IMG/VR virus record: IMGVR_UViG_3300010403_000008
Location: 1 to 54,941 of that record
Length of the DNA: 54,941 nucleotides
Source of the DNA: a virus
Direction: 5' to 3' (one strand)
In this document: positions 1-54,941 of the stretch, piece by piece
Layout of the letters: every line of letters starts with the position of its first letter
Position numbering within the stretch: position 1 is the stretch's first letter
The notes under the pieces: generated by a model
The model's input: the letters and a program-made list of their open reading frames with translations, nothing else
What the model was told of the DNA's origin: nothing
Databases searched by the model: none
Made by a program: the position numbers and the translations under genes

Positions 1-123
1 CGGTCGAATCCGGGTTGGGACCACAAAAAATGCAAATATTTGACCGGGGTGTCGCCAATTCTTTCGCCTTTGTATTTCCCGAAAGGCATCCTGAAATCAT
101 CATTTATCGGGTCTGGAGCTTTA
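1..123. repeat. Left copy of 123-bp terminal direct repeat
   Basis: Bases 1-123 are identical to 54819-54941. This is what a circular or circularly permuted genome looks like when an assembler breaks it at an arbitrary place and leaves an overlap. A true short terminal repeat of the virion DNA cannot be excluded, but the repeat lies inside a coding gene (the DUF3820-like protein reads straight through the joint), which favours an assembly overlap. Confidence 0.93.
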
Positions 124-131
124 ATGATCAT
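1..131 (-). CDS. DUF3820-like protein, N-terminal part (gene crosses contig end)
   Basis: The minus-strand ATG at 131-129 overlaps the stop of the upstream endonuclease gene as ATGA. The protein begins MIKAPDPINDD and then has the DUF3820 signature MPFGKYKG, followed by an acidic DTP and YLHFLW. Read through the circular joint it ends at 54740 and is about 68 residues long, normal for this small family, which is common in phages and bacteria and has no firmly known function. It is incomplete here only because the circle was cut. The first 28 residues closely resemble the N-terminus of the adjacent endonuclease fusion. Confidence 0.72.
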   Translation of the reverse strand, partial: MIIKAPDPINDDFRMPFGKYKGERIGDTPVKYLHFLWSQPGFD

Positions 132-1027
132 GCCGTGATTCCGTTAATGTGATTGATTACTACCGTAGCACACTTGGCAGAATCCGTGTTAATATCATGC
201 TCCCAGAACCTTAAAACCGTGTATCCGTTTTGCTTCAGTGCGGCGTCTCGGTTTCTGTCTTTGGCTTTGATTGCCGCAGTCATTTTGGGATTTTTCTGAT
301 GTCCGCATTGTTCGCAGCAGTGCCAAAAGCATCCATCGCATTCGATGACTATTCCATGTGATGGAATGTAAATATCAACAAGGAACCCAGCCACTGGACA
401 GCTTGAAACATATTGAACTCCAAGCAACGAGAGTTGACGCTGCATCTCGCGCTCAATAGAAGTATTTTTTCTGGAATCGGCCCCTTTGGCGGCAATTGAC
501 TTAATTGTTGATGCGCTCATTTTAGCACGCATTTCTGGAGTGCGCTTATGGTGTCCACATCTATTTAAGCGGGATGCTATGCTGATTTTTGCGCAGTGCT
601 CTGGTGTTCGTATTTTGCCTTTAAGTGCGGCAGCTATTTTGGCTTTATGCTCTGGAGATTTCTTACGACCACGCAATGTCTTGCTGGCGCTTATGGCCCG
701 TTGGGCTTTAGTTCGTTCCAATGATTTTCTGATCTTTTCTATTACATGTGGTGGAACTACTTTGCCAAGATTGGCTGCGCGTAGTTTTGCACGAGCTTCT
801 AAGGTTATTATTTTCCCTTTTTGAGAAATGGAAATTTTGGCCTTAGTCTCTGGAGAATGCTTTCTTCCCATTTGTGAGAAGGCCATTCTTATTTTAGATG
901 CTTCTGAATGTTTCTTCCCAGTCCAATATCCTTTTCTTTTAGGCGTATCCTCCATCCGCTCCATCTTGTAGGGTCCGTAGGGCATCCGGTCATCAGCAGT
1001 CAGTGCTTTAGGGGCAGAGAGAATCAT
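128..1027 (-). CDS. NUMOD3 / Vsr-like (EDxHD) homing-type endonuclease fused to a DUF3820-like N-terminus
   Basis: This 299-residue protein starts at ATG 1027-1025, which overlaps the stop of the previous 33-aa gene as ATGA. An in-frame GTG at 1072 is the alternative start. Residues 1-29 are a DUF3820-type start (ADDRMPYGPYK, then EDTP). Residues about 36-185 hold at least five NUMOD3-type DNA-binding repeats (HSPETKAKIS, KSPEHKAKI, RTPEHCAKIS and others). Residues about 190-282 form a very-short-patch-repair-like nuclease with VDIYIP, IECDGCFWH and KDRNRDAALKQNGYTVLRFW. That places it with the EDxHD homing endonucleases of phages. It probably cuts a phage gene without the insertion and drives its own spread. 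The fusion point is right after the DTP of the DUF3820 part. Confidence 0.82.
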   Translation of the reverse strand: MILSAPKALTADDRMPYGPYKMERMEDTPKRKGYWTGKKHSEASKIRMAFSQMGRKHSPETKAKISISQKGKIITLEARAKLRAANLGKVVPPHVIEKIRKSLERTKAQRAISASKTLRGRKKSPEHKAKIAAALKGKIRTPEHCAKISIASRLNRCGHHKRTPEMRAKMSASTIKSIAAKGADSRKNTSIEREMQRQLSLLGVQYVSSCPVAGFLVDIYIPSHGIVIECDGCFWHCCEQCGHQKNPKMTAAIKAKDRNRDAALKQNGYTVLRFWEHDINTDSAKCATVVINHINGITA

Positions 1028-1125
1028 TTCCGTCTCATCCTTCGTTTCCTGCACTCCATCCTGACCCACCACTTGGGTGGAAGGAGCGGGCCCCAGACAG
1101 TGCGGGGTGTTTCGTAACGATTCAT
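1024..1125 (-). CDS. Tiny basic tryptophan-rich protein (33 aa)
   Basis: The ATG is at 1125-1123 and the TGA overlaps the ATG of the endonuclease fusion as ATGA, the coupling used throughout this strand. The product is MNRYETPRTVWGPLLPPKWW followed by a strongly basic tail with many Arg and Lys. No family is recognised. Because the reading frame of the endonuclease is also open through this stretch, coding status rests on the ATGA junction and the unusual PPKWW composition. Confidence 0.45.
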   Translation of the reverse strand: MNRYETPRTVWGPLLPPKWWVRMECRKRRMRRK

Positions 1126-26956: not shown

Positions 26957-26995
26957 GGGCTGTCAGTTCGGTGGAACTGGCAGCCCTTTTTGTTT
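26957..26995. terminator. Strong bidirectional terminator
   Basis: GGGCTGTCAGTTC (26957-26969), loop GGTG, GAACTGGCAGCCC (26974-26986) forms a 13-pair stem with one G-T wobble, followed by TTTTTGTTT on the plus strand. It ends the rightward capsid-fibre operon and lies at the 3' end of the leftward terminase gene, whose stop overlaps its T-run. Confidence 0.85.
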
Positions 26996-29945
26996 ACGCT
27001 GAGTAGTTCAGTGCCCCCGCATGATGCAGATCAAGCGCCTTCTTCCTGAGCGTGTCCTTCCAGTCGTCATTCTGGGGCTTCTGTGGGGCAGCAACGGAGC
27101 GTAGCTGGAAGCCCTTTTGTCTGGCCCCTTCGATCAGTGTGGCGAGCCAGTCCATCAAGTCTGGGGACCTTCCCATTCGTTCCTTGGTTTTTATCTTAGG
27201 CTCAATTTCGATCCTGTTTCCAGCAACCATTGTCCACTCCCTGGTCATCCCATCCTCCAAAACGTCTTCAGTCAGGCCCCTAAATTGGCCAGCCTCCATA
27301 GCGTACCGGGTCATAAACCACAGTTCGGTCACAAATTTACTGAAATGTTCGTCACATCTCTTTGGTCGCATCTTGCGTTCAGACTCATCATAAATCTGAA
27401 GCTCTGTAGAGACGGGCCTTGATGTGGGCTTTCCCCCAAACTCCAGAGGATTTACGAATGGACTCCAGATACGGGAGAATGCGGTCCCAAGGGACCCCCT
27501 CCCGGTGGCGTCGTAGAATACGTGATTGGCTGGAATCCCCGCTTCAATGCACGCCTCCCTGACAAACATTACGATCTGATCTTCCGGCTCTGTATCTGTG
27601 CCAGCTTTAACTGGAATAATAACATGCGGCATCATGTGGATAATCAGGTCGCCATTGGCATCCAATCCAAACGAACCCCATCCTCCAACACAGCGATCTC
27701 CTCCAACTTCTCCGTATGCTGCATCCACTGCGTAGATTTTAGTCTGCCTATCATCTTTCCAAGCGACTTCCTCAAACGCCTTGAACTTGATTGCGATATT
27801 TCGTGTGAATATCCTGCGTCCGTTAAGCCCTGCCTTCCTGACACCCTTACATTGACTCCAGAACTGGAGACTGTCCCGACCATAGAAAGCAGCAACGGAT
27901 TCAATGCTTTTGGAATTTATCATCCAAGGGTACTTCGTTGGCTGATCTTTGGGATAATCCTCATTTGGAGAATCTGTGCCAACAAGATTAACCGTTCTGC
28001 CGTTCTCAAAACGATTATCCCAAACTGTTGTCTTGGTGATTTCCCCTTCGGTTCCCCAACCATTTTTAGGTTCAGAGATGCGGTCCAACGGATCACCGAT
28101 ACCAAGTGGATTCCCAACGAATACCCCTTTGAAGTCGTGTCCTTCGCCAGTGCCGGAGTTAAGGTTGGCTAATGCATCCAAGTAGCCAGCCTTCATTAAC
28201 TGCGATTCGTCTCCTAGTAGTCTCCTTCTTTTTTGTTTAATCCCCACGTACTTCCCTAATCCCTGCCATGAACCGCCAGAGGACATGCACGGGATGCAGT
28301 TGTGAACTACGACTCCATTTACGCTGTACGATGGGTGATTGTCAACCGAGAGATTGTAGACGCGATGTCCTGAATCACTAAATCCAACTCTTCCCTCACT
28401 CTTGTTTTCGAGAACCTCAACACTTGCCACCCAAGCGTGTTTAGTTCTTCCGTTCTCTTCGCGTCCGCCTTTCGCTTGAATGCTATCCGATGAATCCCAC
28501 CGTCGATTTCGACTGCCAGTTTCAGCCACGGGAACGCTATGTCTATTTCGTAAAAATGCCGAACGTTTTTTCTGGTTCTCCTGCCCGTCATTACTCTGAA
28601 ATGAAGTTCTGCTCCGATGAATGCTGAGGCGATTGCCTGTTCCTCTTTGGTGATTTTCAGATGATCTTCCCCGCTCTTGCGATCCCTGTTTTTCCATCTG
28701 CAAGATTCTCCGCAAAATCTCGTCCGAAACCTCGTCTTGGAAAGAATTATCGAGATGAATGGTTCCGCACATTCCTCGCATTTCCTTTGTTCTGGAAGCA
28801 TCTGGCAGAATTTCGTGCAGAACAGTTGGTTCGGGTGAGCCTGAAATGCTTTTCCGCAATGAGCACAGTTCTGCGTCGTTCGCTTTGGTCCAAGCCCATT
28901 TGCTGCTGCCCAACGACTCGCGCATGTTGTGCTGCAAAATCTGCCCCAATGTGGTGGGCGACTTGGTTTTGGTTTTACTGGTCTGTAAATTGCCTGACAG
29001 AATTCGCATGGTCTTTCTGGAAGCCTGTCTCGACAAAGAGCAGAGCAATGTTTCCTGTTTGGGTATCCTGGTCCGAGTGGTTGGTTGCAAGAGGCGCAGA
29101 GTTTCATGTATTGAGAACACCCTATCGTAAGTCTTTAACTTACTCGCGTCAACCCATCCTCTGCGTGTAAAGAACGGATGCTCAGGTGTGCAATCTATGG
29201 TTCTCCCATCCGATAACGTTACCCTTACTAACTCTCTGGCAATACTGCATTGTATTTCTGTTACTTTACCGATACCGAAAGCATTTAACACTTCTTCTCC
29301 AGGACTGATCGTTTCGATTGATTTTTTTCCTGACGGAGTATCGACTTGAGTTCCCGCCACAAAACAAATAATCCCCTTTCTTAAATCCCTAGTCTCCCCC
29401 TCAATAAGATTGTCGGTACAAATCGCGTGCTTACTATCGAGCAGATGCCCCGGAAGGGATGGGTAGCGATCTTTCGCCTGCTTGAACATATTCTTCATGT
29501 CACCCCAAACACGAAGCTCCAACCCACGAACGTCTGTGGACGAAACAAGAATGAGTGTGTTGTGGGGGAATGCGAAGTAGTCAGTCAATGCGTAACGCGT
29601 TAATGCACAATGAGTTTTTCCGCTATCTCGCGGGCCTAGCACAGCTAGGATTGTGCTTTTAAGCGTCTCCTCTAAAATCAAATCGCTCCATCTATGATGG
29701 GCGTCTTTAGGCCATAAAAGTTGCATCAGACGCTTGTAGTGGAAAAAATCCCCCATCCCCAATGTTTGACCTTGTTTCCCCTTCCAGCTTCCGCCCTTAC
29801 GTATGCAGTATAGCTCGATTTCAATTGCATCCATAACTGGCGGAAACGAAAGCCCGTACAGGTTTTTCTTCGCTTTCGGATTCCGCTTTGGGCCGCTGAA
29901 ACGTGGCACTGTGGGGTCGTTCGGATTCGCTGGATTTTCGCTCAT
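26994..29945 (-). CDS. terL: Large terminase subunit containing an intein (983 aa precursor, about 627 aa after splicing)
   Basis: The terminase cuts concatemeric phage DNA and pumps it into the procapsid. Walker A GPRDSGKT is at 104-111 and Walker B RRLLGDE ends at 580. The RNase H-like nuclease begins IYAVDAAYGE with Asp741 and continues with VFYDATGRGS and a final SPDLMDWLATLIEG. An intein sits between Ile193 and Cys550, so the splice junction joins GII to CIPCMSSGGSWQG. The gene runs opposite to both neighbouring structural operons and ends at the terminator at 26957-26995. It starts 44 bases from the divergent tail gene at 29990. Confidence 0.88.
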   Translation of the reverse strand: MSENPANPNDPTVPRFSGPKRNPKAKKNLYGLSFPPVMDAIEIELYCIRKGGSWKGKQGQTLGMGDFFHYKRLMQLLWPKDAHHRWSDLILEETLKSTILAVLGPRDSGKTHCALTRYALTDYFAFPHNTLILVSSTDVRGLELRVWGDMKNMFKQAKDRYPSLPGHLLDSKHAICTDNLIEGETRDLRKGIICFVAGTQVDTPSGKKSIETISPGEEVLNAFGIGKVTEIQCSIARELVRVTLSDGRTIDCTPEHPFFTRRGWVDASKLKTYDRVFSIHETLRLLQPTTRTRIPKQETLLCSLSRQASRKTMRILSGNLQTSKTKTKSPTTLGQILQHNMRESLGSSKWAWTKANDAELCSLRKSISGSPEPTVLHEILPDASRTKEMRGMCGTIHLDNSFQDEVSDEILRRILQMEKQGSQERGRSSENHQRGTGNRLSIHRSRTSFQSNDGQENQKKRSAFLRNRHSVPVAETGSRNRRWDSSDSIQAKGGREENGRTKHAWVASVEVLENKSEGRVGFSDSGHRVYNLSVDNHPSYSVNGVVVHNCIPCMSSGGSWQGLGKYVGIKQKRRRLLGDESQLMKAGYLDALANLNSGTGEGHDFKGVFVGNPLGIGDPLDRISEPKNGWGTEGEITKTTVWDNRFENGRTVNLVGTDSPNEDYPKDQPTKYPWMINSKSIESVAAFYGRDSLQFWSQCKGVRKAGLNGRRIFTRNIAIKFKAFEEVAWKDDRQTKIYAVDAAYGEVGGDRCVGGWGSFGLDANGDLIIHMMPHVIIPVKAGTDTEPEDQIVMFVREACIEAGIPANHVFYDATGRGSLGTAFSRIWSPFVNPLEFGGKPTSRPVSTELQIYDESERKMRPKRCDEHFSKFVTELWFMTRYAMEAGQFRGLTEDVLEDGMTREWTMVAGNRIEIEPKIKTKERMGRSPDLMDWLATLIEGARQKGFQLRSVAAPQKPQNDDWKDTLRKKALDLHHAGALNYSA
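28299..29366 (-). other. Intein within the large terminase (residues 194-549)
   Basis: Block A is CFVAGTQVDTPSGKKSIETI with Cys194 as nucleophile, block B is DCTPEHPFFT (T-x2-H), and blocks F and G are VYNLSVDNHPSYSVNG and VVVHN followed by Cys550. All residues needed for splicing are present. Between about residues 281 and 525 the in-frame sequence is Arg/Ser/Lys/Gln/Thr rich and looks like no known endonuclease. It overlaps a real endonuclease gene in another frame. The intein should act as a splicing mini-intein with a long insert. Confidence 0.85.
28319..29107 (-). CDS. Zinc-ribbon Vsr/DUF559-like homing endonuclease nested out of frame in the intein (262 aa)
   Basis: The gene lies wholly inside the intein coding region but is read in a frame shifted by one base. 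Residues 1-140 contain at least four C-x2-C zinc units (LCASCNQ, PCEFCQA, NCAHCGKAF, KCEECAEPF). Residues about 155-250 form a Vsr/DUF559-type nuclease: FYEIDIAFPWLKLAVEIDGG, then IH, ADAKRTEELNTLGWQVLRFS. The EID and IEDG-like acidic residues are where the family has its catalytic site. Its last 15 codons also encode intein block F. It should make the intein mobile. Confidence 0.8.
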   Translation of the reverse strand: MKLCASCNQPLGPGYPNRKHCSALCRDRLPERPCEFCQAIYRPVKPKPSRPPHWGRFCSTTCASRWAAANGLGPKRTTQNCAHCGKAFQAHPNQLFCTKFCQMLPEQRKCEECAEPFISIILSKTRFRTRFCGESCRWKNRDRKSGEDHLKITKEEQAIASAFIGAELHFRVMTGRRTRKNVRHFYEIDIAFPWLKLAVEIDGGIHRIAFKRKADAKRTEELNTLGWQVLRFSKTRVREELDLVIQDIASTISRLTITHRTA

Positions 29946-54226: not shown

Positions 54227-54465
54227 GTCCGTTTTTGTCCTTCATCCGGGGTTTTGGGTTCAGGCGTACCCACTTGTGGGTTTAACCTGACTTTGGGCTT
54301 CCGGTTCAAGCCCCAAAGTATCCATGCCATGATAGCTAACGGAACCAGCAAGAGGAAGAGGGGAATGAGGATGGTCATATCAGTGTAAATGATTGCCGTC
54401 AGTATGCCAATCAATGGGGCCAGAGTCATATACAGCACGATCCGGCATTCACGATCTAAGCTCAT
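54223..54465 (-). CDS. Small membrane protein with two spans (80 aa)
   Basis: VLYMTLAPLIGILTAIIYTD and ILIPLFLLLVPLAIMAWILW are two membrane helices with a short loop; the C-terminus is basic and Pro rich. It ends PEPKTPDEGQKRT, echoing the PEPK end of the next gene. The gene is joined to both neighbours by ATGA. Confidence 0.6.
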   Translation of the reverse strand: MSLDRECRIVLYMTLAPLIGILTAIIYTDMTILIPLFLLLVPLAIMAWILWGLNRKPKVRLNPQVGTPEPKTPDEGQKRT

Positions 54466-54749
54466 GGCAACTCCTTCAGGTTGTCGGCGGCGGTGAGGAT
54501 GGCGCGCTTCGCCATGATTGCGCCCTCCCTAATAAGGTAGACATGCCCCGATGCGCTTGGCCCAGCAAGTCCCGCCGCGTGCCTCATCCCGGCGCGGAAG
54601 GCGTCGAGTTGGATGTTGCGAATATCGGTGGACGTGACAATGGAGACATTTCGCTCTGCGAGTTCAATCGGGCCGCTCAACGTGGGATGTGTGGTGAAGC
54701 CAAGAATCATCATCCACTCTTCTGCTGGTCGTGGCTTGCTCACGTCCAT
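54462..54749 (-). CDS. Small hypothetical protein (95 aa)
   Basis: ATG 54749 (MDVSKPRPAEEWMMILGFTT) overlaps the end of the DUF3820-like gene by ten bases. Then AERNVSIVTSTDIRNIQLDA and a helical end AKRAILTAADNLKELP follow. The open frame extends upstream to 54842, but that part is the DUF3820 gene in another frame. No family is recognised. Confidence 0.6.
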   Translation of the reverse strand: MDVSKPRPAEEWMMILGFTTHPTLSGPIELAERNVSIVTSTDIRNIQLDAFRAGMRHAAGLAGPSASGHVYLIREGAIMAKRAILTAADNLKELP

Positions 54750-54941
54750 ATCAAATCCGTATTCTCTGTCTCCAGTGCAGACAGGTTGTTTTGGATGTAA
54801 AGACCCACCGGACTCTTGCGGTCGAATCCGGGTTGGGACCACAAAAAATGCAAATATTTGACCGGGGTGTCGCCAATTCTTTCGCCTTTGTATTTCCCGA
54901 AAGGCATCCTGAAATCATCATTTATCGGGTCTGGAGCTTTA
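54740..54941 (-). CDS. DUF3820-like protein, C-terminal part (gene crosses contig end)
   Basis: This is the same gene as 1-131, seen at the other end of the linear contig. From the repeat it continues YLHFLWSQPGFDRKSPVGLY and stops TGA at 54742-54740. Together the two parts give one intact protein of about 68 residues. The repeated 123 bases belong to both ends, so only one gene exists. Confidence 0.7.
   Translation of the reverse strand, partial: KAPDPINDDFRMPFGKYKGERIGDTPVKYLHFLWSQPGFDRKSPVGLYIQNNLSALETENTDLIWT
54819..54941. repeat. Right copy of 123-bp terminal direct repeat
   Basis: This is the exact second copy of bases 1-123. Joining the copies gives a 54,818-bp circle and restores one uninterrupted minus-strand gene running from 131 through the joint to 54740. 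Confidence 0.93.

Follow-up and report, generated by a model that had tools for sequence, protein, structure and literature searches.

A phage NUMOD3/Vsr-like nuclease gene that opens with a truncated DUF3820 start beside an intact DUF3820 gene, and its possible insertion after codon 29

Endonuclease genes beside their targets in fungal mitochondria and phages

Free-standing homing endonucleases have to insert without killing the gene that they target, and the answers known from phages are introns, inteins and intergenic positions. The replacement of a gene end is known from fungal mitochondria, in which mobile ORFs (mORFs) have been described for atp6 of Allomyces and for atp6, atp9, cox2 and nad3 of Glomus (PMC3630166). 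According to the accessible part of that account, the endonuclease gene of an mORF adjoins a gene with a second, divergent copy of one of its ends, and the affected gene stays functional as a hybrid (PMC3630166).

In T4-like phages, the seg and mob genes are free-standing nuclease genes located close to their targets, and several of the free-standing nuclease genes of these phages are promoter-less cassettes that make use of upstream promoters (PMC2988022). They are presented as intergenic insertions, and the capture of a gene start is not mentioned in the available portion of the source (PMC2988022); nor is the capture of a target-gene start described in the corresponding portion of an account of the HNH nucleases of Skunavirus (PMC12724721). 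A chimeric homing-type nuclease has been described in phage ICP1 (Odn, Gp88), the N-terminal part of which comes from another gene and contributes a whole DNA-binding domain that directs the cutting (PMC8263062). No phage nuclease with a captured target-gene start was found in the open-access literature, which was accessible mostly at the level of abstracts and provides limited evidence on this point.

The locus described here belongs to a phage contig of 54,941 nucleotides (IMG/VR record IMGVR_UViG_3300010403_000008), the whole of which is called the window in what follows. The contig is circular, with an end repeat of 123 bases (54819–54941 = 1–123) and a unit of 54,818 bases, and the intact DUF3820 gene, whose product has 69 residues, runs across the joint (Table 1).

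Table 1. Position of the features of the nuclease–DUF3820 locus in the window.
Feature	Position	Strand	Content or basis
Nuclease ORF, 299 aa (P0001)	128..1027	minus	putative captured DUF3820 start + NUMOD3 array + DUF559/Vsr-like nuclease domain
Putative captured start, nuclease codons 1–29, ends after DTP	941..1027	minus	homology to DUF3820 start; GC/codon-usage change
NUMOD3 array, first part (residues 39–104)	716..913	minus	positions worked out from codon numbers
DUF559/Vsr-like nuclease domain (residues 186–299)	131..472	minus	Pfam + alignment
Intact DUF3820 (PF12843, QSregVF_b) gene, first part	131 to 1	minus	Pfam, local profile
Intact DUF3820 gene, last part across circular joint	54740..54818 (read 54818 to 54740)	minus	end repeat
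ATGA overlap, nuclease stop / DUF3820 start	128..131	minus	sequence
33-aa ORF (MNRYET...), upstream of nuclease, ATGA overlap with nuclease start	1024..1125	minus	read from sequence

As in the fungal mORFs, an endonuclease ORF carries a duplicated and divergent piece of the adjacent gene, which here corresponds to its 5' end. In the fungal cases it is the 3' end that is duplicated, a foreign C-terminus having been inserted and the native remnant left behind, whereas in the window phage it is the 5' end, which the nuclease carries as a fusion; moreover, the fungal nucleases are of the LAGLIDADG and GIY-YIG types, in another host world, while the window nuclease belongs to a different family (PMC3630166). 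The window nuclease shares with seg and mob the free-standing condition and, unlike them as far as they are described, carries what looks like a captured gene start (PMC2988022). With Odn it shares an N-terminal part that appears to come from another gene, although this part is only the start of half a domain and not a complete DNA-binding domain (PMC8263062).

By domain criteria, the nuclease is a putative NUMOD3/Vsr-like homing endonuclease: the ORF matches the Pfam models of NUMOD3, in three stretches (52.9 bits, cut-off 20.4; E 3.5e-14), and DUF559 (40.2 bits, cut-off 20.6; E 3.5e-10), remains below the cut-offs of Vsr (21.3 vs. 27) and MTES_1575 (30 vs. 38.2), keeps the motifs of the DUF559/Vsr-type family in an alignment and matches homing endonucleases of PHROG (E 3.7e-15). 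Its Pfam matches are restricted to NUMOD3, DUF559, MTES_1575 and Vsr, with no intein splicing domain among them. The predicted structure of the nuclease (pLDDT 44, from two sequences) was left unused. Elsewhere in the window, the ORF of the terminase large subunit (26994–29945, minus strand) contains an apparent intein, recognized by eye in the translation, inside which lies a DUF559 nuclease ORF (28319–29107, minus strand; E 1.5e-12) in another frame of the same strand, an arrangement in which a homing nuclease would overlap the reading frame of the apparent intein itself.

The shared start of the nuclease and DUF3820

Residues 1–29 of the nuclease align with residues 1–29 of the DUF3820 protein without a gap, with 16 of the 29 identical, and the alignment ends after DTP. 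The local score between the two starts is 84, whereas none of 20,000 shuffles exceeded 46 and the best-scoring unrelated ORF in the window reaches 39. In a search of its own genome, the full-length nuclease picks out the DUF3820 start (E 3.5e-5). A DUF3820 profile, which was built from 52 of 79 loci (L003–L081; hand-picked, partly to drop near-identical rows, and with the window and its relative L001 excluded) and is biased toward the motif MPFGKYKG, the pattern by which the loci had partly been fetched, yields E values of 2.4e-4 for the nuclease start of the window and 1.5e-6 for that of L001, the next of 866 ORFs being at E 2.5; the intact DUF3820 genes reach approximately 7e-20 with the same profile (6.9e-20 for the gene of the window). 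With the Pfam model, the isolated start of the window nuclease scores 13.3 bits (E 0.08), below the cut-off of 22, so that a profile of phage members, together with the relative, is needed. The results of the shuffles, the own-genome search and the profile indicate that the resemblance is not due to chance and that it survives profile comparison. The nuclease start, homologous to the local profile, classes as a truncated half of DUF3820 and not as a member domain.

A preliminary description of this DNA had reported that the nuclease opens with a DUF3820-type start of 29 residues that breaks off after DTP, that an intact DUF3820 gene adjoins it through an ATGA overlap and that the two DNA copies of the start differ much. 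Both ORFs are found as described, and the two 87-base copies are 56% identical in the window and 62% in L001; the alignment itself also stands, although its extent on the DUF3820 side, given as 28 residues, is better put at 29. The same description had named two observations that would speak against it, namely the loss of the resemblance in a profile comparison and the occurrence of the same N-terminus in related nucleases away from DUF3820 genes. The first is contradicted by the E values above and, regarding the second, there is no DUF3820 match in 109 other loci of Vsr-type nucleases. The set from which this number comes includes 110 loci (30 GTDB genomes and 80 from IMG/VR, the best 80 of 155 relatives), and the only one that matches DUF3820, L134, is the relative L001 again; the proposal that DUF3820 is a standard module of the Vsr-type nuclease family is rejected on these grounds. 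When the nuclease starts were compared with the other ORFs of their own loci, only L134 stood out (score 92, control maximum 41), and the best match of any other locus was 10 above its control. This comparison covered 58 of the 80 viral loci (the best 80 of 155), the N-terminus of the remaining 22 being too short, and it differs from a survey of phage homing nucleases at large because many of the loci are probably ordinary Vsr repair enzymes.

The intact DUF3820 gene is above the Pfam cut-off (28.9 bits vs. 22; E 1.1e-6) and its product contains the core residues MPFGKYKG...P..YL, of which MPFGKYKG is the most conserved stretch of the family; the break falls just behind it. A structural model of the DUF3820 protein (pLDDT 85), for which a Foldseek search gave no matches, predicts helices at residues 30–38, 47–54 and 56–62, which places the break after codon 29 at the start of helix 1 and all three helices downstream. 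Since the 29 residues would hold none of these helices, the piece appears to be a captured start rather than a domain. It also lacks several residues that all 39 proteins of a DUF3820 alignment share (alignment A7, 38 of the 79 loci plus the L001 copy), namely F17, K19 and G22 in the window and K19 and Y20 in L001; the invariance is overstated because MPFGKYKG was itself a pattern with which some of the proteins had been retrieved. Such losses are to be expected if the piece no longer works as DUF3820.

These properties bear on the idea that the nuclease borrowed the DUF3820 start as a functional module for the binding of a partner or of DNA, as in Odn of ICP1. The start is kept in two phages under mild constraint (see below), and there is precedent for phage nucleases with N-terminal parts of foreign origin (PMC8263062). 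Nevertheless, a module of 29 residues with none of the three modelled helices, with motif residues lost and without a counterpart in 109 related loci seems decidedly improbable. In several other phage contigs (L037, L042, L054, L057, L059, L065, L066, L069, L075 and L077), the DUF3820-type motif is located at the C-terminus of an ORF of 460–550 residues and not in a small free protein.

The relative L001 and the step at codon 29

The relative L001 is an IMG/VR contig of 12.6 kb with a DNA identity of 80–92% in the aligned stretches around the nuclease. Its gene order is the same, i.e., a nuclease with the start MILSAPKALTADDRMPFGPFKGERMKDTP followed by DUF3820, and the proteins are close to those of the window: the nuclease is 79% identical and the DUF3820 protein has the same 69 residues plus one. 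Thus, the fused N-terminus, whose conservation in other members had been proposed as a check, is kept in the sole relative found. The 33-residue ORF upstream of the nuclease, possibly a leader, is also kept in L001, but approximately 190 bases away from the nuclease. At both borders of the block formed by the two genes, start codon of the nuclease to stop codon of DUF3820, the two phages differ in length: upstream there is a stretch of approximately 190 bases with a small ORF that only L001 has (L001 4813–5000), and downstream a stretch with an ORF of 95 residues that only the window has (54465–54749). Hence, the edges of the block appear to be places where insertion or loss has occurred repeatedly. 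Another stretch of L001 (3205–3329, plus strand) matches the Rfam tRNA model over 125 bases (37.7 bits), more than an ordinary tRNA would span; in the window, no tRNA is detected by ARAGORN.

Between the window and L001, the DUF3820 gene is 96% identical in DNA with a dN/dS of 0.03, and the nuclease start is 86% identical, with seven synonymous and five nonsynonymous changes and a dN/dS of 0.17. The intact gene is under strong constraint; the start is under some, mild constraint, as judged from only 12 changes. In the rest of the nuclease, the DNA identity is 93% for residues 105–185 and 89% for residues 186–299. The NUMOD3 region of residues 39–104 (L001 5115–5312) reaches 51%, vs. 86–93% in its flanks, a pattern that would fit an exchange of the DNA-recognition part.

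The comparison of the two copies is relevant to another possible origin, a partial duplication of the start of one and the same gene, with the nuclease between the copies and the upstream copy decaying free of constraint. The conserved DUF3820 residues that the upstream copy has lost agree with such a decay. However, this copy scores slightly higher against three further DUF3820 proteins (L012, L036 and L006) than against its neighbour gene, which ranks 4 of 53; it keeps the family-consensus residues LT.D that are absent from the neighbour and is under the mild constraint mentioned above, all of which renders a partial duplication improbable.

The composition of the nuclease gene changes along its first codons. 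Codons 1–29 have a GC content of 55% and a GC3 of 62% in the window (54% and 55% in L001), near those of eleven large phage genes (51.8% and 53%), and codons 30–60 have a GC content of 37.6% in both phages, with a GC3 of 29% in the window and 19% in L001. A codon-usage score in which phage genes are set against the nuclease body from the respective other phage has its maximum precisely at codon 29, in the window and in L001 alike, where phage-like usage gives way to nuclease-like usage (codon-order shuffles, first 29 codons: P 1e-4 in the window and 1.6e-3 in L001). When the score is trained instead with the DUF559 ORF located within the terminase gene, the maximum moves to codon 122, and an untrained GC change-point is weak, falling at codons 28–29 in three of four scans with P values of 0.39, 0.025, 0.68 and 0.14, one of them significant. 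The putative join after codon 29 is well supported by homology; the composition supports it and does not prove it.

The fact that both copies end at DTP could suggest an alternative first exon, the upstream start being spliced to the remainder of DUF3820, since a splice between the two DTP sites would leave the frame intact. Against this, no Rfam family is over the threshold in the window, no intron family is found in L001 and the interval is almost wholly coding, which leaves no room for a ribozyme core; splicing of this kind is extremely improbable. Group I/II intron and intein readings were rejected, given that neither a catalytic RNA core (Rfam) nor a splicing domain (Pfam) was detected, and the earlier characterization of the arrangement as one without intron or intein agrees with these results.

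Possible histories of the locus and their meaning

The reading that we prefer, with a probability of roughly 60%, is that a NUMOD3/Vsr-like nuclease gene inserted in a native DUF3820 gene after codon 29 and that the complete DUF3820 gene behind it preserves the function. A free-standing homing endonuclease gene would have entered the native gene after the codons for DTP and would have been joined in frame to its start, so that the nuclease would use the start codon of DUF3820; the function would have been kept by the complete gene located directly behind. This gene may have been brought whole beside the nuclease, as an allele that the nuclease does not cut, or it may have been rebuilt by joining a replacement start to the native remainder. 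Given the ATGA overlap, the translation of DUF3820 is probably coupled to that of the nuclease, in which case the nuclease would be linked to a gene under constraint. We infer the insertion by homing, a cut site near codon 29, the coupling and the resistance of the present DUF3820 allele from the arrangement of the genes; a possible takeover of the DUF3820 translation signals by the nuclease fits its position.

An insertion into a DUF3820 gene had already been proposed in the preliminary description, and it is backed by the profile homology, the conservation of the start in L001 and the switch in codon usage. Against it, the searches with the nuclease, DUF3820, the neighbouring ATPase, the upstream and downstream genes, the terminase and patterns of the nuclease start turned up no close relative with an uninterrupted DUF3820 gene, and the region behind the intact gene shows no leftover 3' part of a displaced DUF3820 gene. 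The nuclease, the ATPase, the upstream gene, the downstream gene and the start patterns each returned only L001, and the DUF3820 search (best 80 of 129) returned 79 further loci whose only gene in common with the window is DUF3820. Of 13 records examined, L001 and 12 found through the terminase, these 12, mostly fragments, have neither the nuclease nor the DUF3820 gene. Among the INPHARED phages, neither DUF3820 (at E 0.01) nor the 777-residue structural protein has a match, and a 50-residue query that includes the nuclease start gives weak matches only, one of them annotated as DUF3820.

The further claim that a full copy remained when the element inserted is only one of at least three possible histories, which differ in whether the intact gene is a replacement gene, the product of a replacement start or an old tandem paralogue. 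In the last of them, the nuclease would have inserted in the first of two side-by-side DUF3820 genes, the 3' part of which was subsequently lost, and no replacement would have been brought. The same final gene order results, and the two copies are indeed old and divergent (56–62% DNA identity). On the other hand, the 79 loci L003–L081 (from the best 80 of 129) contain no second separate DUF3820 ORF, the relative (L001/L002) being left apart, and a displaced 3' remnant is not seen behind the intact gene; old tandem paralogues are therefore regarded as unlikely.

The locus would be a true 5'-end mirror of the fungal mORFs if the insertion at codon 29 took the native start and a replacement start behind the nuclease rebuilt the gene, a version that we put forward only tentatively, as possible. 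In that case, the element would need neither an intron nor an intein, and its loss would be difficult, given that translation of the rebuilt gene passes through it. If the preferred reading is true, a phage nuclease that carries the start of the gene it disrupted, followed by that gene in restored form, would represent a further route of insertion, in which the insertion point is marked in the sequence itself. It would also provide a simple rule to search for such elements, which is to look for nucleases with an N-terminus that resembles the N-terminus of the next gene.
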